This document shows, in pieces, positions 353-41,168 of a stretch of DNA of 64,000 bases. The DNA lies in the NCBI GenBank assembly GCA_903844845.1, contig CAIMVG010000020.1, positions 1-64,000 on the forward strand. The letters are read 5' to 3'. The first letter of the stretch is position 1, and every line of letters starts with the position of its first letter. The stretch comes from an uncultured Dehalococcoidia bacterium (GTDB taxonomy: Bacteria; Chloroflexota; Dehalococcoidia; Dehalococcoidales; UBA1222). The position numbers and the translations under genes were made by a program. The notes beneath the pieces were generated by a model. It was not told the DNA's origin. It was given only the letters and a program-made list of their open reading frames with translations, and did no database searches.

Positions 353-1438
353 ATGAAAGCCGTAATTCTGGTGGGCGGTCTGGGTACCAGGCTTCGACCT
401 CTCACGTATAACACTCCAAAATCCCTGGTACCCGTGCTGAACAAGCCTTTCCTTGAGCACGTCCTGCTCAAACTGAAACAGCACGGCGTCGGGGAGATTG
501 TGCTGGCGTTGAGCCACCTGGCGCCTCTCATCGAAGAGTGTTTCGGCGACGGGCGGCGCCTTGGGCTCGATATAAGTTATGTCACCGAGAAATCTGCCAT
601 GGGGACTGCAGGCGCGGTAAAAAACGCGGCAGAAATGGTATCCGACACCTTTTTCGTGCTCAACGGCGATATTTTTTCCGACCTTGATCTCAGCGCGATG
701 CTAAGATTTCACAAGCAACACAGGGCAAAAGTTACCATCGCGCTGACTCCTGTGGACGACCCGACCCGTTATGGGTTGATTGAAACCGACGGCTATCAAC
801 GGGTTACGCGCTTTCTTGAAAAACCGCGCCCGGAAGAGGTAACCACTAATCTGATAAATGCGGGAACATATCTTATGGAACCCGATGTGCTCGGCAAAAT
901 CCCGGCCCTTGAAGAACACAGTTTTGAAAGGCAGCTCTTTCCTTCGATGTTAAAGGCAGGGGACGCGGTTTTTGCCTTCCCGTCTTCAGGCTACTGGATA
1001 GACATTGGCAACCCGGAAAAATACAAACAACTCAATTTCGATCTATTATCTGGCAAGGGTGGGCAATACGGCTTCAACCGCGGCGACCAGATTGCTCTAG
1101 GTCACGGCAGCCACATCCATCCGACCGCCAGGTTAAAGGGGCCATTGATGGTGGGCGATAACTGTACCATCGGGAAAGATGTTATCATCACAGGCCCGAC
1201 CATCATCGGACCGGATTGCCGGATTGAGGCAGGGGCAACCATTTCCGATTCCATCCTTTGGCAAAAGGTGACGATCGGAGGCGGTTGCAGCTTTATCTCA
1301 AGTATCGCAGCAAGGGGATGCCGGCTTGAGGAATCGAGCCAGGCCCACGGGGCTGTCCTGGGGGACAATGTAACAGTGTCTCAGGGGTACGTGTTAAAGC
1401 CCGGCGAAAGCGTCGAACCGGGAGTAACCAAGGGGTAG
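353..1438 (+). CDS. Sugar-nucleotide pyrophosphorylase (NDP-sugar / mannose-1-phosphate guanylyltransferase type)
   Basis: This enzyme transfers a nucleotidyl group to a sugar-1-phosphate, making activated sugars for cell-surface glycans. The N-terminus carries the nucleotide-binding signature GGLGTRLRPLT followed by TPKSLVPV, and a nucleotidyltransferase fold covers roughly residues 1-230. After about residue 245 come hexapeptide-like turns (HIHPTARLKG, IGPDCRIEAGATI), so a left-handed beta-helix trails the catalytic domain as in GMP and GDP-mannose pyrophosphorylases. The length of 361 residues is normal. A GTG at 350 directly precedes the chosen ATG at 353; either could start translation and no strong Shine-Dalgarno separates them. 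The exact nucleotide and sugar cannot be read from sequence. acsA follows after 27 bases. Confidence 0.85.
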   Translation: MKAVILVGGLGTRLRPLTYNTPKSLVPVLNKPFLEHVLLKLKQHGVGEIVLALSHLAPLIEECFGDGRRLGLDISYVTEKSAMGTAGAVKNAAEMVSDTFFVLNGDIFSDLDLSAMLRFHKQHRAKVTIALTPVDDPTRYGLIETDGYQRVTRFLEKPRPEEVTTNLINAGTYLMEPDVLGKIPALEEHSFERQLFPSMLKAGDAVFAFPSSGYWIDIGNPEKYKQLNFDLLSGKGGQYGFNRGDQIALGHGSHIHPTARLKGPLMVGDNCTIGKDVIITGPTIIGPDCRIEAGATISDSILWQKVTIGGGCSFISSIAARGCRLEESSQAHGAVLGDNVTVSQGYVLKPGESVEPGVTKG

Positions 1439-1465
1439 TACAGAATAATTTTGCAGGAGGGATCT

Positions 1466-3433
1466 ATGCCTACCATCGACAAAAGCGGGGAAAAACGCAA
1501 TCTGCCTACCAATAACTATTTTTGGCCGTTAAAAAGATATCTCGACATGTATAAAAAATCCCTGGATGACCCTGAGGGTTTCTGGGGAGAACAAGCCAAG
1601 CTTCTCGATTGGGACAAACCCTGGGACAAGGTACTGGACTGGAAACCGCCATATGCGCGCTGGTTCGTGGGAGGACGTTTGAATGTCTCGACACAGTGCG
1701 TTGACCGGCATGCGAAGACGTGGCGTAAAAACAAGGTGGCCATATACTGGGAAGGCGAAACCGGCGATACAAGGACGCTCAGTTATGCCGATCTCTATCA
1801 CGAAGTCAACCGCTTCGCTTTTGCATTGAAAAAGCTCGGGGTCAAAAAAGGCGACCGCATCGTCATCTATCTTCCCATGATTCCCGAACTGACGATAGCC
1901 ATGCTGGCCTGTGCCCGTCTCGGTGCCATCCATTGTGTGGTATTTTCGGGTTTCAGCGCGCAGGCTATCGCCGACCGCGTCAATGATTCCAATGCCAAAG
2001 TCATCATCACCGCCAACGGGGGTTATCGCCGTGGCAAGATACTGCCGCTTAAAGAGATAGTCGACGAAGCGGTTAAACTGAGCCCGGGCATCGAAAAAGT
2101 CCTGGTGGTGAAATATACCGGGCACGAAGCGGCGTTCGACGCAAAAACAGATGTCTGGCTTTCCGACCTTATGGACGGAGCCGGCATCCATGTCGAACCC
2201 GAATCGATGGAGGCTACCGATCCGCTCTTCATCCTTTACACATCGGGTACAACCGGCAAACCCAAAGGCATATTGCACGGCACTGCGGGATACCTGCTGT
2301 ATGCGGCTAAAACCCTTCAGTGGGCTTTCAATCCCAAGGATGATTCGATATGGTGGTGCACTGCGGACGCCGGCTGGATTACCGGTCACAGTTATGTAGT
2401 TTATGCGCCTCTCGCGCTGGGCCTCACCTCCGTCATTTATGAAGGGGCCCCGGACTTCCCAGCCATCGACCGCTGGTGGCATATCATTGAAAAATACGGC
2501 GTCACCATATTCTATACGTCGCCCACCGCGATACGTATGTTCATGCGCAATGGAGAAGACTGGCTCGCCAAACACGACCTTTCCTCGCTTCAGGTGCTCG
2601 GTAGCGTGGGCGAAGCCATCAATCCCGAAGCATGGGAATGGTACTATAAATTCGTCGGCGCGGAGAATTGCCCGATCGTGGACACCTGGTGGCAAACCGA
2701 GACCGGCGGATTCATGATTTCACCCTGCGTGGGTATCCAGTCTTACCCCCTGAAGCCGGGTTCCGCAACCTTGCCCATGCCCGGTGTCGACCCGGTGGTA
2801 CTGGATGCTGACGGTAAAGAAAACTGCCCTAATACCACAGGGTTTATCGCCATCCGCAAACCCTGGCCGGGAATGCTGCTTGATGTTTACGGCAACCCCG
2901 ACATTTACCAGAAAACCTACTGGTCCCGCTTCCCCGGCTTCTACGCTCCCGGGGACTATTCCATGAAAGACGACGACGGATACTGGTGGTTACTCGGCAG
3001 GGCGGACGAAGTGATCAAGGTCTCAGGCCACCGCATCAGCACAGCCGAACTCGAGCATGCGGTCGTGGGGCATACCGCGGTGGCTGAAGCCGCCGCCACC
3101 TCGAAACCCGACGAAGTCAAAGGAGAAGCAATCGTGCTTTTCGTGATCCTTCGCAAGGGCCAGACACCGTCCGTGGAACTCAAGAAAGAACTGGTCAAAC
3201 ATCTCAGGACCGCTATCGGCACCGTGGCGACCCCCGAGGAAGTTCTTTTTGTAGACAAACTGCCCAAAACCCGCAGCGGCAAAATCATGCGCAGGGTACT
3301 CAAAGCGGTCGCTGCCGGGGCAAGCATCGGCGACGTCACGACTCTGGACGACCAGACCTCAGTGGCAGAGGCCCTTCAGGCTTACGAAGATCTGAAGGCG
3401 GCCGCAGCCAAGTCTTTGCACCACAAAGAGTAG
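1466..3433 (+). CDS. acsA: Acetyl-CoA synthetase, AMP-forming
   Basis: It activates acetate to acetyl-CoA through an acetyl-adenylate. The adenylate-forming signature [11 protein letters not shown], the aromatic-rich acyl pocket around WWCTADAGW, the hinge region with [18 protein letters not shown], and the C-terminal [11 protein letters not shown] whose lysine is the acetylation-controlled catalytic residue are all present. The 655 residues match the family. Translation should begin at ATG 1466, because CAGGAGGG lies six bases before it; a longer TTG frame from 1451 contains that ribosome site and is unlikely. The gene ends at a strong hairpin terminator. Acetate use or recycling is the natural role; a propionate preference cannot be excluded. 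Confidence 0.95.
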
Positions 3434-3450
3434 CGATTCCGGCTTTTCGA

Positions 3451-3485
3451 AACGGAGGGAGGGATGTAAGTCCCTCCCTCCGTTT
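3451..3485 (+). terminator. Rho-independent terminator after acsA
   Basis: A 14-bp inverted repeat, AACGGAGGGAGGGA paired with its complement across a TGTAAG loop, is followed by TTT. It closes the pyrophosphorylase-acsA unit. Confidence 0.85.
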
Positions 3486-3487
3486 AT

Positions 3488-3517
3488 TTGAGGGCAAAAT
3501 CAGGCATATGATACAAT
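3488..3517 (+). promoter_or_regulatory. Candidate sigma70-type promoter for prfA-prmC
   Basis: TTGAGG at 3488-3493 and TACAAT at 3512-3517 are separated by 18 bases. They lie just after the acsA terminator and 21 bases before the prfA start. Match quality is 4/6 and 5/6. Confidence 0.5.
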
Positions 3518-3538
3518 GGACATCATAAGGAAAATGTT

Positions 3539-4609
3539 ATGTTAGATAGATTGGCCCAACTGGAAAAACGTTTTAACGATATAGAACTGGAAATGGCAAA
3601 TCCGGACATAGTATCGAACGTAAAACGTTTGCAGGAACTGGCACAGGAACGATCCGGCATCCAGGATGTCGTGACGCTGTACAGGCAATACAAATCGACC
3701 GAAAAGCAGATGGAAGAAGCCCGCGCCATGCTTGATACAGAAACCGACGAAGAGATGCGCGGCATGGCAAAACAAGAACTGATGTCCCTTCAAACAAACC
3801 TCGAATCACTTCTGGCATCGCTTAAAACCGCTCTTCTTCCCAGGGACCCCAACGACGACCGTGACGTGATCGTTGAAATCAGGGCGGGCGCAGGAGGCGA
3901 CGAGGCAGGCCTTTTCGCCGGTGAACTCTTCCGCATGTACAGCCGGTATGCGCTGACCCGCGGATGGAACATCGAAGTCATAGACCGCAATGAATCCGCC
4001 ATCGGCAGTATCAAGGAAATAATATTTGAAGTCAAAGGCAAAGGCGCTTTTTCACGTTTCAAATACGAGCGGGGAGTGCACCGGGTCCAACGCGTCCCCA
4101 GCACCGAATCAGGCGGCCGCATCCATACTTCCACGGCCACGGTAGCCGTTCTGCCCGAGGCCAAGGACGTGGAGGTGGATGTGAACCCCGGAGACCTCCG
4201 CATCGACATTTTTCACAGCGGTGGCGCCGGGGGACAGAACGTCAACAAAGTATCGACCGCGGTACGGCTGACCCACCTCCCGACCGGACTGGTGGTCGTA
4301 TGCCAGGATGAGCGCTCCCAATTGCGTAACCGTCAAAAAGCCATGGCTGTGTTGAAAACCAGGCTTCTCGATGCCGAGCGAACGCGCCAGGAAGGCGAAA
4401 TCAGCGCGGAACGGCGCGGCCAGGTTGGCACCGGCGAGAGGTCTGAAAAAATCCGCACCTACAATTTCCCGCAGGACCGGGTGACCGATCACCGGATCGG
4501 GATAACGATGCACAACCTGCCGAAAATCATGGAGGGCGGCCTCGACGACCTGATTGACGCAGTAGCTGCCAGCGAACAGGCCAAGGCTCTCGAATCCGAA
4601 CTGGTATGA
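3539..4609 (+). CDS. prfA: Peptide chain release factor 1
   Basis: RF1 reads UAA and UAG stop codons and triggers peptide release in the ribosome. The catalytic GGQ loop is seen in SGGAGGQNVNK. The codon-recognition tripeptide is the PxT type (RVPSTESGGRIHTS, PST instead of the common PAT), which assigns it to RF1; RF2 has SPF. Length is a standard 356 residues. The ATG is preceded by AAGGAAA. Its TGA stop overlaps the ATG of prmC in an ATGA junction, and prmC methylates this same GGQ glutamine, so the pair is functionally and translationally coupled. Confidence 0.97.
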   Translation: MLDRLAQLEKRFNDIELEMANPDIVSNVKRLQELAQERSGIQDVVTLYRQYKSTEKQMEEARAMLDTETDEEMRGMAKQELMSLQTNLESLLASLKTALLPRDPNDDRDVIVEIRAGAGGDEAGLFAGELFRMYSRYALTRGWNIEVIDRNESAIGSIKEIIFEVKGKGAFSRFKYERGVHRVQRVPSTESGGRIHTSTATVAVLPEAKDVEVDVNPGDLRIDIFHSGGAGGQNVNKVSTAVRLTHLPTGLVVVCQDERSQLRNRQKAMAVLKTRLLDAERTRQEGEISAERRGQVGTGERSEKIRTYNFPQDRVTDHRIGITMHNLPKIMEGGLDDLIDAVAASEQAKALESELV

Positions 4610-5433
4610 AAATAAAAGACGTCCTCGGAGCCGTCCGCGGGCGCCTCGATTCTGCCGGAATAGAAGAAGCGTGGCTGGAAGCCGAACTTCTCTTGCGGCA
4701 CGCACTTTGCCTGGGCTCCGTAGGTCTGTTTCTCGAACACGACGAAGAACTGGGCCCCTCTCAGGTAAAATTGATCAGCCTGCTGGTGGACCGGCGGGTC
4801 TCGGGGGAACCGGTCGCTTACATCACAGGCAAGCGCGAGTTTTACGGCAGAGAATTCCATGTCAATCCCCATGTCCTTATCCCGAGACCTGAAACCGAGC
4901 ACCTCGTAGAAAAGGCGCTGGAAATCGTTTCCCTGATAAAATATCCGGTCGTCGCAGATATCGGAACAGGCAGCGGGGCAATCGCGGTCAGCCTCGCCGC
5001 GGAAGTGCCGGATGCCCGCGTTTTTGCCGTCGATATCTCGGACCCCGCCATCGATACTGCGAGGTTGAACGCCAGGCGCCAGGGAGTCGAGTCCAGCATC
5101 ACCTTTCTTTACGGCGATCTGGCGGAGCCCTTGCCCGGACCGGTGGATGTCCTGATAGCCAACCTGCCTTATGTCAATTCAGCCGATTGTGTTGCCAGTC
5201 CTGAACCTCAACTGGCGCTTGACGGAGGGATTGGCGGGCTCGATGCCATCGAACGCCTCTGTAACAGCCTGGAGGGCAAATTAAGGCTGGGCGGATGGGT
5301 ACTCCTTGAGATTGGTCAGGGTCAGGCAGAAACCGTACAACGCCTGTTAAGGGAAGCCTTGCCGGATGCGCGGGTAGGAACGATTAAAGATCTCGCCGGG
5401 ATTGATCGGGTAGTGTGGGGTCAAACCGGCTGA
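4606..5433 (+). CDS. prmC: Release factor glutamine N5-methyltransferase
   Basis: PrmC (HemK) methylates the GGQ glutamine of release factors using S-adenosylmethionine. The SAM-binding glycine motif VADIGTGSGAIAVSLA and the substrate-glutamine motif NLPYV (NPPY in most homologs, with Leu for the first Pro here) are present. The N-terminal helical domain contains the expected YITGKREFYGREF. The 275-residue length is typical. It starts inside the prfA stop codon. The Leu substitution occurs in some homologs and should not by itself imply loss of activity. Confidence 0.93.
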   Translation: MKIKDVLGAVRGRLDSAGIEEAWLEAELLLRHALCLGSVGLFLEHDEELGPSQVKLISLLVDRRVSGEPVAYITGKREFYGREFHVNPHVLIPRPETEHLVEKALEIVSLIKYPVVADIGTGSGAIAVSLAAEVPDARVFAVDISDPAIDTARLNARRQGVESSITFLYGDLAEPLPGPVDVLIANLPYVNSADCVASPEPQLALDGGIGGLDAIERLCNSLEGKLRLGGWVLLEIGQGQAETVQRLLREALPDARVGTIKDLAGIDRVVWGQTG

Positions 5434-5516
5434 GATTTTCTTTACGAATTTGAGGTAAACACAAATCCAGCCTGATGATAATAAATTACATCTCCGCTGT
5501 GACCAAGACGAAGGTA

Positions 5517-5550
5517 ACAAAAAATGGGGGCGGTTTCAACCGCCCCCATT
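5517..5550 (-). terminator. Terminator of the EF-G-like gene
   Basis: A 12-bp stem (AATGGGGGCGGT with its complement, 5523-5550) is followed on the minus strand by a run of T. It lies between the convergent prmC and EF-G-like genes. Confidence 0.8.
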
Positions 5551-5571
5551 CGACGTTTGTTGACCGGGTTC

Positions 5572-7644
5572 CTATTTGACCTCTTCTTTTTCCTTTTCGG
5601 CCAGGCGGTCGGCTATGATCTTCTGCGTGATGTGGGCAGGGACTTCCTTGTAATGGCTGATTTCCATGGTATACGTCCCGCGGCCCTGGGTGATGGATTT
5701 AAGGTCCGTTGCGTAATGCAGCACCTCGGCCATCGGCGCTTCAGCATCTATTTCGTTGATGGGGCCGTTCGGATTCATCCCCATCACGTGGGCCCGCTTG
5801 GTATTGAGATCGCTCAAAATGTCGCCGGTGAAATCGTTCGGGACAGTGATCTTCATGGTGACGATAGGCTCGAGCAGGATGGGTTTGGCGTCCTGCATAC
5901 CTTGCTTAAGCGCGCCTGCCCCTGCTATCTTGAAGCACATTTCCGAGGAATCGACGGGGTGGTAGCTGCCGTCGACGACGATCGCCTTCAATCCTACGAC
6001 TGGAAAGCCCGCGAGCGCCCCTTCTTTCAAACCTTCGAGGACACCTTTTTCCACTGCGGGTATGTAATTCTTGGGAACCGCCCCTCCTACGACCTTGTTT
6101 TCGAAAACGTTTTCGGCTCCGCGCGGCAGCGGAACCAGTTCCAGCACCACGTGGCCGAACTGCCCGTGGCCGCCGCTCTGTTTCTTGTGCCTGTACTCGG
6201 ACCTGGTGCCGGTGGTGATGCTTTCGCGGTAGGGCACTTTCGGCGGGGTGAGATCCACGCCTACTCCGAATTTACGCAGCATCTTTTCCCCGGCAACCGC
6301 TAATTGGGTGTCCCCCATGCCCGAAATGATCGTTTCGGCCGTATCGTGGTCACGGTGTATGTGCAGGGTAAGATCTTCTTCAGCCAGGCGGGAAAGGGCA
6401 GCCCCCATCTTGTCCAGGTCGGCTTTGGTTTTGGGATGCACTGCAGCGCTGTAAACCGGCTTGGGGAAAGTCAGGGGTGCGAGTTTTACGGGTTTGTCCT
6501 GAGTGCCAAGCGTGTCCCCGGTGACCGTGGCATTAAGCTTGGCGACAGCGCCGATATCTCCGGCATCGACCTTGACCACCGCTTCCTGGGTTTTGCCCCT
6601 GATGGTGAATAGCTGACCGACACGTTCCTCGGCATTCTGGTTGACGTTCCAAAGATGCGTGTTGCTTTCGAGGGTGCCGCAATACACGCGGAAATATGTG
6701 AGCTTTCCCACATAAGGGTCAGCCGTGGTCTTGAAAACAAGGGCCGCAAGCGGGGCGCTAGAGACCGGCTGGGCTTCTTTCACCTTTGAGTCCTCAGCTA
6801 ATGCAACTTTGCGCTGAAGCGGCGACGGCAGGTAAGTCTCTATGGCGTCCAGCAGCTGGGTGATGCCGATCCCCTGGAGAGCTGAACCTGTGAGGACGGG
6901 GATGAGTTTTCTGGCAGGGACCGCCTGTTGGATGCCCTTCTTCAGTTCGGCCTCGCTGAGTTCATCCCCTCCAAGGTATTTCTCCATGAGCCCGTCATCC
7001 GTTTCAACCACAGCTTCGATCATTTTAGTTCTCAAAGATTTGGCCTGGTCCATCAACTCAGCAGGGATAGGGCCTGCCTTTGCCGGGGTACCCGTATAAG
7101 CTTTCATCGAGATAAGATCGATGATACCGGTAAAACTTGTGTGGGTGCCGATCGGCATTTGAAGAGGAACGCAACGGCCGCCGAACCTGGCCTGAAACTC
7201 CTCGGCGGTTTTCATGAAATTGGCGTTTTCCCGGTCCATTTTATTTACGAATATAATGCGGGACTGTCCGGTCTCATGGCTTAAATTCCAGGTTAGTTCC
7301 GTACCGACTTCGAGCCCTGAGGCGGCGGAGGCCACCATAACGGCGCCCTCTGTGACCCTTATTCCGGCTTTGACCTCACCTACGAAGTCTAAATATCCGG
7401 GGGTGTCGAGGAGATTGATTTTGGTTTCATGCCACTCGAATGGAAGCAGCGAGAGGTTGATGCTGATGTGGTGTTTGATCTCGTCGGGATCATAGTCTGA
7501 TGTCGTGTTGCCGGCTTCGATCTTCCCGAGGCGATTGATGGTACCGGTATTGAAAAGGATAGCTTCGGCCAATGTCGTTTTTCCGGCGCCGCTATGGGAT
7601 AGGAGAACGACATTCCTCAGATGCTCTGGAGAGAACTGTTTCAT
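5572..7644 (-). CDS. Elongation factor G-like GTPase (EF-G paralogue)
   Basis: A translation-factor GTPase of 690 residues with the full EF-G domain order. The G1 loop is SHSGAGKTTLAEAIL, whereas canonical EF-G has GHVDAGKTT. G3 is DTPGYLDF, where the usual His after DTPG is Tyr, and G4 is NKMD. These deviations mark the EF-G-like paralogue group, sometimes annotated 'elongation factor G-like protein' or EF-G2, and not the main translocase. The DTPGH histidine stimulates GTP hydrolysis in true EF-G, so its replacement suggests a slow or specialised GTPase. The start ATG follows AGAGAGG. Its exact cellular job is unknown; ribosome recycling or a stress role is possible. Confidence 0.88.
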   Translation of the reverse strand: MKQFSPEHLRNVVLLSHSGAGKTTLAEAILFNTGTINRLGKIEAGNTTSDYDPDEIKHHISINLSLLPFEWHETKINLLDTPGYLDFVGEVKAGIRVTEGAVMVASAASGLEVGTELTWNLSHETGQSRIIFVNKMDRENANFMKTAEEFQARFGGRCVPLQMPIGTHTSFTGIIDLISMKAYTGTPAKAGPIPAELMDQAKSLRTKMIEAVVETDDGLMEKYLGGDELSEAELKKGIQQAVPARKLIPVLTGSALQGIGITQLLDAIETYLPSPLQRKVALAEDSKVKEAQPVSSAPLAALVFKTTADPYVGKLTYFRVYCGTLESNTHLWNVNQNAEERVGQLFTIRGKTQEAVVKVDAGDIGAVAKLNATVTGDTLGTQDKPVKLAPLTFPKPVYSAAVHPKTKADLDKMGAALSRLAEEDLTLHIHRDHDTAETIISGMGDTQLAVAGEKMLRKFGVGVDLTPPKVPYRESITTGTRSEYRHKKQSGGHGQFGHVVLELVPLPRGAENVFENKVVGGAVPKNYIPAVEKGVLEGLKEGALAGFPVVGLKAIVVDGSYHPVDSSEMCFKIAGAGALKQGMQDAKPILLEPIVTMKITVPNDFTGDILSDLNTKRAHVMGMNPNGPINEIDAEAPMAEVLHYATDLKSITQGRGTYTMEISHYKEVPAHITQKIIADRLAEKEKEEVK

Positions 7645-7839
7645 CTAACAACCTCTCTTTGCTAGTTCTTAGCTTTGTTTATTAGTCTAAACAGGCACTG
7701 CCTGATCAGCCACAATTTACTTAGCCAACGCCTAACCTGTTGTCTTTACCCTCTTCATCGCCGGATGCCCTGAATGCATGATGACCGCGCGACCGGGGTC
7801 GAGTTGAACGGATAAATTTAGTCTTTGCCGGATATTCCG

Positions 7840-8100
7840 CTATTTGAGGAAAAACCACAGCACGAGGAGCAATAAAACTACAAAAGCGGAGAACAAAGCT
7901 ATGCGTTTTAGTTCATAGGGAAGTTCCGCAAATCTCACAGCCGCGGGCTCCTGGTTCACAGGTGTTTTAAAACCGGCAAGTTTTACCGGGGTTGCCGCAA
8001 CCGCCGGTTTAACCTGGGGCGCCTGGGCAGCCGGTTTAACCGCTGCAGCCGGCTTATGCGAACGGCTTTTTTTACTCTGGTGTATATTCCTGTGGGCCAT
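7840..8100 (-). CDS. Small tail-anchored hypothetical protein, Ala/Pro/Lys-rich
   Basis: The 86-residue product has a basic start (HQSKKSRSHK), a flexible stretch of repeated KPA/VKPA units, and one C-terminal hydrophobic helix ending FVVLLLLVLWFFLK. This predicts a membrane anchor with the disordered part in the cytoplasm. ATG 8100 follows AAAGGA. The gene lies 35 bases after the recombinase gene on the same strand, so the two may be cotranscribed. I do not recognise a family, and no function is proposed. Confidence 0.6.
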   Translation of the reverse strand: MAHRNIHQSKKSRSHKPAAAVKPAAQAPQVKPAVAATPVKLAGFKTPVNQEPAAVRFAELPYELKRIALFSAFVVLLLLVLWFFLK

Positions 8101-8135
8101 CTAGAATCCTTTCACTGGATAGTTTTTTTCGCTGG

Positions 8136-9059
8136 TTATCCCGCGCCGGCCTGTCTCGCCCTCGGATGGGCCTTGTCATAGGCCTGGCGGATGTGGTCCG
8201 ACGTTAGGTGAGTGTATATCTGGGTTGTGGAAATGTTGGCGTGGCCCAGCAGTTCCTGGACCGAACGCAGATCCGCCCCCCCGTTAAGCATGTGAGTGGC
8301 GAAGCTGTGGCGAAGGGTGTGCGGTTTGACCTGTTTCTCAAGCCCTATGACCTTCGCGTAACCTTTCAGGATCTGCCAGAGGCCCTGGCGCGTCAACCGG
8401 TCTCCGCGCTGATTGACAAAAAGGGCTTTCTCGTCCGTCGAGTGGACGAACTGGGGGCGAACTTCTTTTGTGTAAATCTCAACTGACTGCGCCGCCTGGG
8501 GATACACGGGCACCATGCGTTCTTTTTTCCCTTTACCGAAAGGCCTTACAAAACCGTTTTTGGTATCGATGTCTCCCAGGTTAAGACCGACAAGTTCACT
8601 GACCCTCATCCCGCTGGCATAAAGCAGCTCCAGCATGGCCCGGTCGCGCTTGGCTTCCGGGGCCTGGCTTTTAGCCGGCTGGTCTATCAATAACCGCACC
8701 TGACTCACAGTTAACGTATCCGGCAGGGCCTTGCCAACCTTCGGCGAGCTTATGTTGGCCATGGGATCGGCTTTGATCTTGCCTTCGGCGATAAGAAATC
8801 CGAAGAATGATTTGGCGGCCGCCACTTTGCGGGCCACCGTGGTAACTGCATATCCCCGTTCTTTGAGGTTGAGCAGGTAGCTCAGCATCTCGGGACGGTC
8901 GAAAGCATTCCAGGTCAGCCTTTTGCCATTTTTTGAGGCTGTATCTTCGGCAAAAGTAGCCAGTTGATTAAGATCGTTGGCATATGCCGAGGTAGTATTG
9001 GTCGAAAAACCTTTCTCCACTCGGAGGTAGTTCAAAAAGCTGTCAATATCCTCTCTCAC
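8136..9059 (-). CDS. xerC: Tyrosine recombinase, XerC/XerD type
   Basis: A 307-residue site-specific recombinase. The N-terminal SAM-like DNA-binding domain (about residues 1-85) is followed by the catalytic domain, with the first active Arg in ASGMRVSELVGL, the HxxR pair in HTLRHSFATHML, the late His in LGHANISTTQ and the nucleophile Tyr in IYTHLT. Length and motifs match the chromosome-dimer resolvases that act at dif, so a single-Xer role is likely; an integrase role cannot be ruled out. Translation probably starts at GTG 9059 behind GAGAGG. No dif-like site was recognised nearby, and no integrated element is evident around it. Confidence 0.88.
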   Translation of the reverse strand: MREDIDSFLNYLRVEKGFSTNTTSAYANDLNQLATFAEDTASKNGKRLTWNAFDRPEMLSYLLNLKERGYAVTTVARKVAAAKSFFGFLIAEGKIKADPMANISSPKVGKALPDTLTVSQVRLLIDQPAKSQAPEAKRDRAMLELLYASGMRVSELVGLNLGDIDTKNGFVRPFGKGKKERMVPVYPQAAQSVEIYTKEVRPQFVHSTDEKALFVNQRGDRLTRQGLWQILKGYAKVIGLEKQVKPHTLRHSFATHMLNGGADLRSVQELLGHANISTTQIYTHLTSDHIRQAYDKAHPRARQAGAG

Positions 9060-9293
9060 GCGTCACCTCTCTCCGAATTGCATCTATTTTAACATAACAC
9101 AAAGATAATGCAAGCGGCATTTGGCCGCGATTATTTATGGTCCCGGTAAAATTTTGCATCGGCTCCAGATCTGCCTTAACCCCTCCCCCGAACGTTTGGG
9201 GAAAGTCGCTTACATGTTCCGAACGGCCGTAAAATTGATAGATCCATCAAGAAACTAACATCTTATGCTCAGGCGTCGTTATAGTGATTGTAT

Positions 9294-9322
9294 TTGACGC
9301 CCAGATTTCTTTGGGCGATACT
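9294..9322 (+). promoter_or_regulatory. Candidate promoter for the Ala-rich coiled-coil gene
   Basis: TTGACG at 9294-9299 and GATACT at 9317-9322 have a 17-base spacer, with a GGAGG ribosome site (9336-9340) and ATG at 9346 downstream. Apart from this promoter nothing else is recognised in the 286-base gap from 9060 to 9345. Confidence 0.5.
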
Positions 9323-9345
9323 TGAATCATCTAACGGAGGTAACT

Positions 9346-9999
9346 ATGGCTGGTAAAGAGGTTGAGAACAAAGCCGAAAAAGCGATAGCTGAACAAGCCC
9401 TCGTCCGGAGGGCAAAGATATTGACCAAACCGCTCCCCCAGATTCTGGACGAGATGGACACCAATATCGAGGCGGCCGCCGAGGCCGCGCGCAAAGCCGA
9501 AGCGGCCGCTAAAAGCGCGAATGCCGCAGCCGGAGCGGCCACCAAAGCTTCAGATGAGGCCAAAAGGGCGGGCCAGGAAGCTGCCGACACGGCCACCCGG
9601 GCAGCTCGCGACGCGGCCGGCAAAGCGGAAAAAACCGCTAAAGCCGCCATCGAGGTGTCGGAAAGAGCGGTGGTGAGGGCCGACGAATCTGAACAAGCCG
9701 CTAAAAATGCCATCGAGATATTCAAACAACTCGTCGCCGAGGCCAGCCAGAAGGCTGATGAAGTACGCAGGGCGGGCGACCTGGCTTCCGACCGGGCAAC
9801 CCGGGCGGCTGCCGAGATAGCTGCCTTCGGTTCTTACACGGTTGAAGCTGTGAAGCAGATGACGGAACTTTCCAACAGGTTGATGGCAGACATACAGGCC
9901 AAAGCCGACGAAACCGGGGCCCGCATCAAGGGGTTGCAATCTGCCACCCAGCCGGCGCCGACCGCGGTTAAAAAGGAAACCAAACCGGGCAAAAAGTAA
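9346..9999 (+). CDS. Alanine-rich coiled-coil protein, unknown function
   Basis: The 217-residue product is extraordinarily rich in Ala, Lys and Glu (AAEAARKAEAAAKSANAAA, TATRAARDAAGKAEKTA). It shows heptad-like spacing from about residue 40 to 185, predicting one long helix or coiled coil, and has a basic tail ending KKETKPGKK. No signal peptide or membrane segment is visible. The start is ATG 9346, because CGGAGG lies just upstream; a longer frame from 9322 would place that site inside the coding region. It has its own promoter and terminator, so it is a single-gene unit. Similar composition occurs in stress (LEA-like) and polymer-scaffold proteins, but a function cannot be assigned. Confidence 0.75.
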   Translation: MAGKEVENKAEKAIAEQALVRRAKILTKPLPQILDEMDTNIEAAAEAARKAEAAAKSANAAAGAATKASDEAKRAGQEAADTATRAARDAAGKAEKTAKAAIEVSERAVVRADESEQAAKNAIEIFKQLVAEASQKADEVRRAGDLASDRATRAAAEIAAFGSYTVEAVKQMTELSNRLMADIQAKADETGARIKGLQSATQPAPTAVKKETKPGKK

Positions 10000-16981: not shown

Positions 16982-17009
16982 GTAGGGGCACGGCGCGCCG
17001 TGCCCCTAC
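16982..17009. repeat. 28-bp palindrome, copy 1
   Basis: This is a perfect 28-bp palindrome: half-site GTAGGGGCACGGC, centre GC, then the mirror half. It is the reference form for the family listed below. Confidence 0.9.
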
Positions 17010-17057
17010 GTAATGATCCTCGACGGAGGGTTCTTTCTGGTTTTTCGCGTTGTTCAG

Positions 17058-17087
17058 GTAGGGGCACGGCGTGCCGTGCCCCTCTAC
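17058..17087. repeat. 28-bp palindrome family, copy 2
   Basis: Full stem with a GTGC-type centre and a two-base CT insertion in the right arm (CCCCTCTAC). Confidence 0.85.
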
Positions 17088-17170
17088 GTACCGATTGCAC
17101 CAATGCCCTTGCGTACTTCAAACGCTGAAAATGGCCGTGCCTTTTTCTTTGATCCATTTGGTTATGCCGG

Positions 17171-17198
17171 GTGAGGGCACGGCGCGCCGTGCCCCTAC
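17171..17198. repeat. 28-bp palindrome family, copy 3
   Basis: The left arm starts GTGAGGG instead of GTAGGGG; the core and right arm are intact. It lies downstream of the transposase gene. Confidence 0.85.
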
Positions 17199-17242
17199 AT
17201 ACCGTATTTGGCCGTGCCCCGATATAATAATCGCACCGTGTC

Positions 17243-17857
17243 CTATTTACCGGTCCTGGACGGATTCTCTTCGTCTTCTTCCCAACGGACGGGGTTATAT
17301 TCGATATATTCACGAATGCGGTTCAAATCATCTTCGTCCCGCACAACATGTTCATAATAATTCCGTTGCCAGACGGGTGCGCCCGGCGTTTTGCGGGATT
17401 CGTTGATACATTTTGTTACCGCGGATTTATATGCGCGCACGATGGTCGGTATCGAATCGGCAAGGGGCTTACCAAATCCCTCTGGGGTAAGGGCACGGCG
17501 TTCGTAGCCATTCGGGATTTCCGTAGGGGCACGGCGTGCCGTGCCCCAATGCAACGCCGTACCATCATGTAACGAATCAAGAATTATTATGCCGTGGATA
17601 TGGTTGGGCATGACGGTAAATCTATCAAGCGTCACATTTTGCCGGAGAACCGCCGTTTTCAACCATTGTTCTTGTGCAAATCTGCCTGGTTCATTTAATA
17701 CGAGTAGGGGCACGGCGCGCCGTGCCCCTGCATAATGCCCGAATATAGGTTCGTGGTTGAATGTGCAAATTGTTATGAAATAGGCCCCGTTTTGAGAATA
17801 ATCGTATTGCGGAAGACGTGAAGAGCGTCTGTGACCGGCATTGGGATCATATATCAT
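17243..17857 (-). CDS. REP-associated-type Y1 (HUH) transposase carrying palindrome copies in frame
   Basis: The 204-residue product is a member of the IS200-like / REP-associated tyrosine transposase (RAYT) group. These single-strand DNA enzymes recognise palindromic hairpins and cut with one tyrosine. The HUH motif is MPNHIHGIII (His86, His88), the nucleophile is Tyr143 in RAYKSAVTK, and the family signature EYIEYNPVRW lies near the C-terminus. Two palindromes sit inside the gene without breaking it. Copy 17704-17731 is read as GARRAVPL (residues 44-51) and copy 17523-17547 as GTARRAPT (105-112, another reading phase); a half copy yields ERRALTP (119-125). All lie between conserved blocks, so the enzyme may still be active. 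The ribosome site is weak. Palindromes flank it on both sides. Confidence 0.88.
   Translation of the reverse strand: MIYDPNAGHRRSSRLPQYDYSQNGAYFITICTFNHEPIFGHYAGARRAVPLLVLNEPGRFAQEQWLKTAVLRQNVTLDRFTVMPNHIHGIIILDSLHDGTALHWGTARRAPTEIPNGYERRALTPEGFGKPLADSIPTIVRAYKSAVTKCINESRKTPGAPVWQRNYYEHVVRDEDDLNRIREYIEYNPVRWEEDEENPSRTGK
17523..17547. repeat. Palindrome copy 4, inside the transposase gene
   Basis: GTAGGGGCACGGC with centre GT and right arm ending CCCC (the last TAC is missing). It is translated in the transposase frame as GTARRAPT. Confidence 0.9.
17704..17731. repeat. Palindrome copy 5, inside the transposase gene
   Basis: Full length with one terminal change (CCCCTGC for CCCCTAC). It is translated on the minus strand as GARRAVPL, a different phase from copy 4. 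Confidence 0.9.
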
Positions 17858-17893
17858 AAATCGCTTTTCTCATTTGGGGCACGCCGTTTGAAT

Positions 17894-17917
17894 GGGCACG
17901 GCACGCCGTGCCCCTAC
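17894..17917. repeat. Palindrome copy 6
   Basis: The left arm is shortened to GGGCACGGC; the centre is AC and the right arm complete. It lies just upstream of the transposase gene. Confidence 0.8.
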
Positions 17918-18044
17918 GTACCAATTGTGTCGTGCCCCTACGTAATGATTGCGCCTTGCACCTGCATAATGCTCTGACGATGTTCGCGTTGGTCGTGTAG
18001 GGGAAGTTCGCGACTTGCCCCGCTTTTGGTTGTCCGCGTCGTTC

Positions 18045-18072
18045 GTAGGGGCACGGCGCGCCGTGCCCCTAC
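18045..18072. repeat. Palindrome copy 7
   Basis: A perfect 28-bp copy with a GC centre, preceded by CGCGTCGTTC. Confidence 0.9.
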
Positions 18073-18167
18073 GTGTTGATCGTCATGTTGTTGAAAACGT
18101 GCCGTGCCCTTACCTGTGCCGTGCTCCTGCGTAATGATTGGACTTCTTGGCTGTTCGCGTCGTTCGT

Positions 18168-18196
18168 GTAGGGGCACGGCGTGCCGTGCCCCCTAC
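18168..18196. repeat. Palindrome copy 8
   Basis: GT centre, with one extra C in the right arm (five C). Confidence 0.88.
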
Positions 18197-18252
18197 GTGT
18201 ATGATCGCACATTGAACCTGCGTAATGCTCTGACGTTATTCGCGTCGTTGGT

Positions 18253-18280
18253 GTAGGGGCACGGCGTGCCGTGCCCCATA
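18253..18280. repeat. Palindrome copy 9
   Basis: GT centre; the right arm ends CCCCATAC instead of CCCCTAC. Confidence 0.85.
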
Positions 18281-18308: not shown

Positions 18309-19070
18309 TTATTTTTCGGTCGCCACGTGATTGACCAGCCCGCCGATGCCCTCGATACGCACCTCGACCATGTCACCGGGCTGCATTGGCCCCACCCCTT
18401 CGGGCGTGCCGCTGGCGATCACGTCCCCGGGAAGCAGCGTCATAACGCGGGAAACCGCCGCCACCAGGCGGGCGACAGGGAAGATCAGGTCTCTCGTGTT
18501 CCCGCTTTGTTTCACTTCGCCGTTGAGACGGGTTTCGATCTTCAATGCCGAAGTGTCCAGTTCCGTTTCTATCCATGGCCCGACCGCCGCAAAAGTATCG
18601 AATGACTTGGCGCGGGTCCACTGGCCGTCGATCTTCTGCAGGTCCCTGGCCGTAACATCATTGAAACAGGTGTAGCCCAGGACAAAATCCAGGGCTTCCG
18701 CAGGCTCGACCCGCCGGGCTTTCCTGCTGATAACGATGCCCATCTCGCCCTCGAAATCCACCTGTTTCGAGATAGACGGATAAACTATGTCTGCGAGCGG
18801 GCCGATGACCGCGGTGGAGGGCTTGAGGAACATCAGCGGCGAGGCAGGCAGATCGTGTTTGAACTCTGCCGCATGTCCCCGGTAGTTTATACCGATGGCC
18901 GCTATCTTTGAGGGCACGCACGGCGCCAGCAGTTTGACCTCTGAAAGTTTAAATGCATCTTCAAGCAGTTTGATCCCGCCGAAAGGGTTACCGCTTATGA
19001 GTTGAACTTTGTCGCCCTTCAGTATCCCGTAATGCCTGCGGCCGGAGGCGGTGAATCGTACGATTTTCAT
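18309..19070 (-). CDS. Fumarylacetoacetate hydrolase (FAH) family protein
   Basis: The 253-residue protein belongs to the FAH superfamily, whose members hydrolyse C-C bonds, decarboxylate or isomerise beta-diketo acids with Mg2+. Family marks are GINYRGHAAEF, metal-binding acidic residues in VDFEGEMGIVI, CFNDVTARDLQ and the closing GDVIASGTPEGVGPMQPGD. The N-terminal small domain is also present, giving the length of the YcgM/HpcE type. The substrate is not evident; acylpyruvate or oxaloacetate are family options. ATG 19070 is chosen; a GTG at 19085 is the alternative and an AGGGAG site lies between possibilities. The gene ends inside the palindrome field. Confidence 0.87.
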   Translation of the reverse strand: MKIVRFTASGRRHYGILKGDKVQLISGNPFGGIKLLEDAFKLSEVKLLAPCVPSKIAAIGINYRGHAAEFKHDLPASPLMFLKPSTAVIGPLADIVYPSISKQVDFEGEMGIVISRKARRVEPAEALDFVLGYTCFNDVTARDLQKIDGQWTRAKSFDTFAAVGPWIETELDTSALKIETRLNGEVKQSGNTRDLIFPVARLVAAVSRVMTLLPGDVIASGTPEGVGPMQPGDMVEVRIEGIGGLVNHVATEK

Positions 19071-19119
19071 AGAGATTTCTAACACTCCCTGCTTTTGTTT
19101 TAGTAACTTCTGGTAATTG

Positions 19120-19154
19120 GAATTGAATTGGCAAGCGGCTTACCAAATCCCTCT
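19120..19154. pseudogene. Short remnant resembling part of the transposase gene
   Basis: This 35-base stretch, GGCTTACCAAATCCCTCTG at its core, matches 17456-17484 inside the transposase gene (the part coding PEGFGKPLADSIPT) with few changes. In both places it runs directly into a palindrome-derived GGGCACGGC. It looks like a relic of a second transposase copy or of a hairpin-linked excision. Confidence 0.55.
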
Positions 19155-19178
19155 GTAGGGCACGGCGGGCCGTGCCCC
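19155..19178. repeat. Palindrome copy 10
   Basis: Shortened copy GTAGGGCACGGC with a GG centre, attached to the transposase-like remnant. Confidence 0.8.
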
Positions 19179-39925: not shown

Positions 39926-40576
39926 ATGAAAAAATTAACTTTCAAAATTTTCTCTTTACTGACCGTGCTCCTGGTTTGTATCACGGCCATCGCGGCATCA
40001 GCCTGCAAAAGTTCTTCATCCGCCACCACGAGTGTCCATACCCAGACATGGTCCGCGGCACCTGCGATGCAGATCGACCTTTCAAAAACCTACACCGCGG
40101 TTTTTGATACCAGCCTGGGCACTTTTAAGGTCCAGTTATTCACTTCCCTCGCACCCAAAACGGTAAATAATTTCGTTTTCCTGTCGAATCAAAAATTCTA
40201 TGACGGCACCATATTCCACCGCATAATGAAGACTTTCATGATCCAGAGCGGCGACCCCACCGGCACCGGCATGGGCGGGCCCGGATACACCATACCCGAC
40301 GAATTGCCTGTGAAATACTCTTATGACCCCGGTATCGTTGCCATGGCGAACACAGGACGAGCCAACTCGGGCGGCAGCCAGTTCTTCATCTGTACGGGAA
40401 CTGTGGCGGCCAACCTTAACCAGAACCCGATCTACACCGAATTCGGGAAAGTCATCGAGGGCATGGACGTAGTTCAGAAGATAGCCGCTGTGTCCGTCGT
40501 GGCGTCATCTTCCGGGGAACTTAGCAAACCTGTAACCCCGCCGGTCATCAAAACGATCACCATAGAAGTATCTTAA
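39926..40576 (+). CDS. Peptidylprolyl isomerase (cyclophilin), lipoprotein
   Basis: Cyclophilins catalyse cis/trans isomerisation of prolyl bonds. The 216-residue protein starts with a lipoprotein signal (LLTVLLVCITAIAASAC, Cys27), so it should be anchored outside the cytoplasmic membrane to help fold exported proteins. The catalytic domain runs from about residue 50 to the end: FHRIMKTFMIQSGDPTGTGMGGPGY, with the active Arg in FHRIM and PVIKTITIE at the end, and the substrate-binding residues of SQFFICTG. Start is ATG 39926; the frame upstream is repeat-derived. The next gene is a close paralogue without signal peptide, 31 bases away. Confidence 0.93.
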   Translation: MKKLTFKIFSLLTVLLVCITAIAASACKSSSSATTSVHTQTWSAAPAMQIDLSKTYTAVFDTSLGTFKVQLFTSLAPKTVNNFVFLSNQKFYDGTIFHRIMKTFMIQSGDPTGTGMGGPGYTIPDELPVKYSYDPGIVAMANTGRANSGGSQFFICTGTVAANLNQNPIYTEFGKVIEGMDVVQKIAAVSVVASSSGELSKPVTPPVIKTITIEVS

Positions 40577-40607
40577 TAAGCACATTTTAATTAGGAAGGA
40601 AGAAAAG

Positions 40608-41168
40608 ATGCCGATCAATACAGGAAACCCAGGGATGCCGATGAGCTGGAGTTCAGCTCCTGCAATGACACTGGACAAGACCAAGAAATACCATGCCGTT
40701 TTCGAGACGAGCCTCGGTTCTTTCAAGGTAGAACTGCTGGCCGACGAATCGCCGAAGACAGTTAACAACTTCGTCTTTCTGGCAAAGCAAAAGTTCTACG
40801 ACGGCGTGATTTTTCACCGCATAATCAAGACTTTCATGATCCAGGGCGGCGACCCCACCGGCACCGGATGCGGCGGCCCGGGATACCAGTTCGCAGACGA
40901 ACTGCCCGTCAAACACTCCTATGAACCGGGTGTCCTGGCGATGGCGAATTCGGGCCCCAATACCAACGGGAGCCAGTTCTTCGTCTGCACCGGCGGCGAT
41001 TCCAAGTTCCTTAACCAGCAGCCGAATTACACCCAGTTCGGGAAAGTCGTCGAAGGCATGGATATCGTGCAGAAGATAGCGTCGGTGCCCGTTTCGTTCA
41101 GCAACGGGGAGATGAGCAAGCCCCAGACGCCCCCCGCCATCAAGACCATTACGATCATTGAGACGTAG
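40608..41168 (+). CDS. Peptidylprolyl isomerase (cyclophilin), cytoplasmic
   Basis: The 186-residue cyclophilin is highly similar to its upstream neighbour: ETSLGSFKVELLADESPKTVNNFVFLAKQKFYDGVIFHRIIKTF, then GGDPTGTGCGGPGYQFADELPVKHSYEPG and SQFFVCTG. It lacks a signal peptide, so it acts in the cytoplasm. The pair looks like a tandem duplication in which one copy gained or lost a lipoprotein signal. ATG 40608 has AGGAAGG upstream. The coding sequences are clearly diverged, so the duplication is not recent. After the stop comes a strong hairpin at 41211-41250. Confidence 0.94.
   Translation: MPINTGNPGMPMSWSSAPAMTLDKTKKYHAVFETSLGSFKVELLADESPKTVNNFVFLAKQKFYDGVIFHRIIKTFMIQGGDPTGTGCGGPGYQFADELPVKHSYEPGVLAMANSGPNTNGSQFFVCTGGDSKFLNQQPNYTQFGKVVEGMDIVQKIASVPVSFSNGEMSKPQTPPAIKTITIIET

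Follow-up and report, generated by a model that had tools for sequence, protein, structure and literature searches.

The gene at 17243-17857 on the reverse strand of the window, the whole 64,000-nucleotide stretch of DNA analysed here, encodes a REP-associated tyrosine transposase (RAYT/TnpAREP) with copies of its own REP family inside its coding sequence. As judged by sequence, the palindromes within the gene match those that flank it, and across phyla the palindrome in the slot after the HuH strand (slot 2) tracks the sequence of the transposase and not the phylum of the host. The gene is probably a TnpAREP of the subclass 2.4 kind, assigned by description, with a putative cognate double-foot REP in the post-HuH loop and a further copy in a beta-hairpin turn, mobile as a unit. 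The features concerned are as follows.

16986..17194: three downstream REP palindromes (16986-17005, 17062-17081 and 17175-17194), from a palindrome search
17243..17857, reverse strand: RAYT/TnpAREP-type Y1 transposase gene, from the ORF, domain matches, alignment and predicted fold
17306..17308, reverse strand: Y184, the likely catalytic tyrosine (YIxxNP), from the alignment and knowledge of the family
about 17488..17506: half copy of the palindrome, next to EGFGKP and encoding ERRALTP, from comparison with the fragment at 19049-19177
17526..17547: slot 2 palindrome, 22-bp core, read as GTARRAPT (residues 105-112), between the HuH strand and the next helix
17594..17602, reverse strand: HuH motif H86-I-H88, invariant in alignment A2
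17706..17729: site 1 palindrome, 24-bp perfect core, read as GARRAVPL (residues 44-51), from the sequence; in a beta-hairpin turn in the model
17894..18276: four upstream REP palindromes (17894-17913, 18049-18068, 18172-18191 and 18257-18276), from a palindrome search
19049..19177, reverse strand: remnant of a second, decayed transposase copy whose slot palindrome directly adjoins EGFGKP, from sequence comparison

The open frame specifies a protein of 204 amino acids that matched Y1_Tnp in a domain profile search (E = 2e-6). REP_Tyr_transpos (NCBIfam NF047646) was matched in two stretches with an insert between them (E = 1.8e-19), scoring 70 bits against a curated cut-off of 80, which is an annotation threshold and not a biological feature. 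The Pfam search over the organism's own genome did not pick up the gene, probably because of the insert. The HxH motif at residues 86 and 88, originally noted as undisturbed by the palindromes, is indeed intact. Tyr143, originally named as the catalytic residue, does not hold that position: Phe is the usual residue at this place in the relatives, and the tyrosine that hardly varies in the alignment is Y184 in REYIEYNP. This sequence fits YIxxNP, the RAYT signature. The protein shows the combination expected of a RAYT/TnpAREP, namely a Y1_Tnp domain with the HuH motif and the tyrosine in YIxxNP, and the gene is flanked by GTAG-type REPs. The predicted fold is likewise RAYT-like, the top Foldseek match being 4ER8 (E = 2.2e-6, probability 1.00, TM 0.49/0.59), the structure of E. 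coli TnpAREP in complex with a REP hairpin, which was also the best PDB match by sequence. Mean pLDDT for the AlphaFold model, built from 40 sequences, was 79.9, with values above 90 over much of the conserved core and of about 50 in the slot loop; slot 2 is predicted to be a disordered, variable loop.

Two full palindromes and one half copy lie in frame within the gene, as was originally noted, and the full copies do occupy two different codon phases. The sole mismatch of the 17526-17547 core is at its centre, and each in-gene copy has one foot decayed. Their placement between conserved blocks agrees with the model, in which slot 2 falls in the disordered loop and GARRAVPL in the turn of a predicted beta-hairpin with strands at residues 40-46 and 49-54. 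The GTAG-type REP family was present at approximately 38 places in the 1.91-Mb genome, 18 of them in this contig and nine within 16986-18276, and at zero places in the reversed, non-complemented control of the genome. Both full in-gene copies folded better than nearly all shuffles and are predicted to form stable hairpins as DNA and as RNA. The genomic copies, the empty control and the folding together indicate that the in-gene palindromes are not there by chance; the domain matches and genome copies support the proposal of a RAYT gene containing its own REP family. Double-foot REPs (GTAG...CTAC) are found at, for example, 16982-17009 and 18045-18072. In the window's genome, none of seven candidate ORFs that span palindromes had a credible match in Pfam; the majority of the copies appear intergenic.

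Other repeats were evident in the same genome. Between 20120 and 41536 in the window there is another intergenic repeat, marked by the motif TCCGACAATCCAGA, which often adjoins the palindromes. At 40154-41092 two stretches in tandem resemble each other (78% over 197 nt and 81% over 84 nt) and represent an apparently duplicated gene. Nine palindromes of a sister subfamily are clustered within 8.5 kb at 990-9528 of locus L264 (contig C27); their flanks resemble TATGRTGA...CTACAAAA, with CTAC on one side and the GTAG foot absent on the other. A protein search of this 990-9528 region did not find a relative of the transposase.

The decayed fragment at 19049-19177 is situated 1.2 kb upstream of the intact transposase gene and extends to where an FAA-hydrolase gene begins. 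It matches the transposase gene over the part from the slot onwards, and its full palindrome stands almost directly beside AGAGGGATTTGG; in the intact gene, the interval between the palindrome centre and AGAGGGATTTGG contains 36 additional bp and then another right arm. The comparison suggests that a 36-bp insertion or duplication, in frame, broke up an earlier slot palindrome, whose right arm would be the ERRALTP half copy; the window gene would then have an older half copy beside a newer full one.

Of the 80 best relatives found in public genomes, which represent many phyla and align over the whole protein, 68 had a palindrome in slot 2, two had their best palindrome at site 1 and 10 had none above threshold. 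Since the query itself contains GTARRAPT, a slot-blind profile was also run against 400 genomes of the phylum, where it matched in 125, many of the matches being split at the slot junction. The slot palindrome was present in 27 of 52 distinct genes taken from these matches, which may be an underestimate because the loci returned first favour unsplit matches. Occupancy is patchy, with 25 changes on a transposase tree whose deep branches are weakly supported, so the slot palindrome is not required; several relatives carry decayed palindromes. Most relatives have FGxIVDGEMxLN at site 1 and no palindrome. Two relatives (L112 and L113) have a palindrome at site 1 and an empty slot 2, one (L062) has palindromes at both, and another (L024) has a degenerate palindrome at site 1, which is a rarer second permissive site. 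A plasmid search returned four relatives only, all distant. The original prediction expected both peptide segments to be insertions lacking from relatives. GARRAVPL is absent from most; GTARRAPT proved to be no one-off, a slot palindrome being found in many phyla. What had been set down as evidence against the prediction, conservation of these peptide segments in unrelated genomes, was nearly encountered, in that the site is shared, but as a DNA palindrome that varies and is read in two frames rather than as a peptide.

No stem mismatch was present in 76 of 99 palindromes, among which there were more than 40 different arms. Even-length palindromes occupied two codon phases (33 and 31); the TAG within GTAG closes the third. 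Pairs with higher slot-masked protein identity had more similar arms (r between arm distance and identity = -0.32, p <= 0.0005, n = 92). Between-phyla pairs alone yielded r = -0.34 and a shared phylum added no effect (p 0.5), host phyla having been assigned by hand on the basis of record titles; the host REP pool was rejected as the source of slot identity for want of this phylum effect. The correlation held with the N-terminal part of the protein alone (-0.18) and the C-terminal part alone (-0.11), and therefore cannot be attributed solely to the protein adjoining the slot. Within the groups of genes sharing the arms GGTTCG, ACGGCA, GTATTG and ACGGCG, the core is identical or nearly so, the remainder of the gene has approximately 60% DNA identity, and fourfold sites are 25-35% identical, that is, saturated; divergence is lower within the GCAATT group (53% fourfold-site identity). 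Palindromes of the ACGGCA and GTATTG types were found in both frames. Near-identical cores at saturated fourfold sites, together with the use of two frames, indicate that constraint or renewal acts on the DNA and not on the peptide. Because a common arm was the basis on which these groups were chosen, they show that identity can outlast saturation and not how often it does so; the general link between palindrome and transposase is carried by the correlations. Synonymous-codon shuffles provided a poor null, since the shuffling frequently restored some of the palindrome.

The association extends to the flanks. Copies of the slot core occurred at 1.8 per kb upstream and 1.7 per kb downstream within 100 bp of the gene, and at 0.02 per kb at a distance of 2-4 kb. 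A palindrome was present within 250 bp of 45 of the 92 genes, its arm being that of the slot in 25 of the 45 and differing by no more than one change in 36; the mean difference between flank and slot arms was 0.98, against 3.81 expected from the arms of other genes. On a wider count, the flanks of 23 of 65 genes held a slot-core copy, compared with 1.3% in other loci. Genome-wide copy searches covered a small number of genomes, of which several were draft MAGs. Two of those searched, Aquaspirillum serpens (G004) and a Nitrospira MAG (G009), had no recognisable copy other than the one in the slot, and two-mismatch matches were near the control level. In sampled genomes other than that of the window, 38 of 69 palindromes fell in long stop-to-stop frames, which are possible genes.

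Individual loci showed further variation. In L081 the slot arm is GGTTCG and that of the downstream flanking copy GATTCG, a compensated change since both palindromes are perfectly self-complementary. Palindromes at 2677 and 3943 of L192 are identical to the slot copy of the neighbouring transposase and lie in one open frame of 1199 residues, which may be a real gene with internal REPs. In L173-L187, from a Latescibacterota genome (G001) that also contains the relative L023, exact GTAG palindromes numbered 17; they have a dozen or more different arms, and most lie in long open frames.

An internal REP is already a known feature of subclass 2.4 genes. In-frame REPs, generally between HuH and Y, were described in 2018 as a predominant and unique feature of this TnpAREP subclass (RAYT group 4), which has double-foot REPs, and the insertions were judged peripheral, tolerated and of little impact on the protein (PMC6006769). 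By description, the likeness extends to in-frame REPs between HuH and Y, GTAG...CTAC double-foot REPs, flanking REPs, occurrence in many phyla and a variable insertion domain from the HuH strand to the next helix, in which the in-frame REPs were found here. The window gene differs in its second-site copy in the beta-hairpin turn and its split older copy. E. coli TnpAREP (RayT, subclass 2.2; 4ER8) shares the HuH/Y1 fold and is the best structural match, whereas the rayT coding sequence is without a REP-like palindrome (best 12 bp) and its REPs are bulged (PMC8266576); in vitro recognition of REP and GTAG motif has been described for other subclasses (PMC8266576). IS200/IS605 TnpA proteins (IS608, ISDra2) have the same Y1 HuH fold and hairpin recognition, predicted here, but a weaker sequence match, and mobile IS ends were not identified at the window gene. 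Intragenic GTAG/CGTC REPs and Rickettsia palindromic elements also lie in frame within coding genes (PMC3733652), although those genes are unrelated and the gene here is that of the presumed cognate enzyme. New here are the finding that the palindrome follows transposase sequence rather than host phylum, its reading in either of two frames, and its occurrence as the sole genome copy. In the open-access literature searched, the link between slot palindrome and transposase, the two frames and the sole copies were not found reported.

The palindromes may have no role, REPs landing anywhere and persisting only where, as in this loop, disorder permits, which is the view of PMC6006769 and a possibility to be taken seriously, though not one that we favour. 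The disordered, variable loop of the model, the patchy occupancy, the decayed palindromes of several relatives and the palindromes lying in other long open frames are all consistent with such tolerance. It fits poorly with a palindrome that follows the transposase and not the host phylum, with near-identical cores despite saturated synonymous sites, and with sole genome copies; yet renewal driven by the enzyme, with no role for the internal copy, stays compatible with these. Somewhat less likely, and offered tentatively, is that the palindrome is a selected cis-acting DNA signal, either a seed ensuring that gene and cognate REP move together or a site of cis-preference or self-limitation. Sole copies in some genomes and identical palindromes across phyla at approximately 45-66% protein identity point in this direction; against it, many members have no slot palindrome and re-insertion could yield the same pattern. 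Regulation of the gene through its mRNA, by pausing, decay or autorepression, is improbable: the predicted RNA hairpins are strong (-20 to -22 kcal/mol), but G.U-type mismatches are not in excess on the sense strand (16, against 17 of the antisense type), and selection on an mRNA hairpin was rejected for this lack of strand bias; the self-regulation by an mRNA hairpin that was originally suggested finds no support here. That the encoded peptide (GxxxxAPT/GAxxxPL) is the conserved entity is very improbable despite invariant G105 and P111 in 40 aligned proteins, since the same DNA yields different peptides in two frames and there are many unrelated arms, and peptide conservation was rejected on the two-frame reading.

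The preferred reading is that of a subclass 2.4-like transposase travelling with its putative cognate REPs. The cognate association, the identity at the level of DNA and the indifference to frame are observed. The enzyme would cut and join single strands at REP hairpins, so that cognate REPs would be inserted, duplicated and renewed time and again, both within the gene and next to it. REPs arriving inside the gene would mostly be lost, but the slot loop and the beta-hairpin turn would tolerate them in either open frame. The gene with its internal and flanking REPs may pass horizontally from host to host as a self-contained unit, retaining one or more copies of the substrate.

The spread of REPs and the matching of RAYT to REP are unsettled questions, on which the internal hairpin bears as a built-in record of the likely substrate of each gene; more than 40 enzyme-hairpin pairs can thus be read from genomes for in vitro tests of specificity. 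The data challenge the published view of the insertions as merely tolerated (PMC6006769). That the internal hairpin follows the enzyme and not the host suggests that it belongs to the gene as a matched component and is not litter left by accident. It is conceivable, if on balance doubtful, that the in-gene REP is a selected component at the DNA level, such that a matched enzyme and substrate hairpin would be inherited and transferred together.
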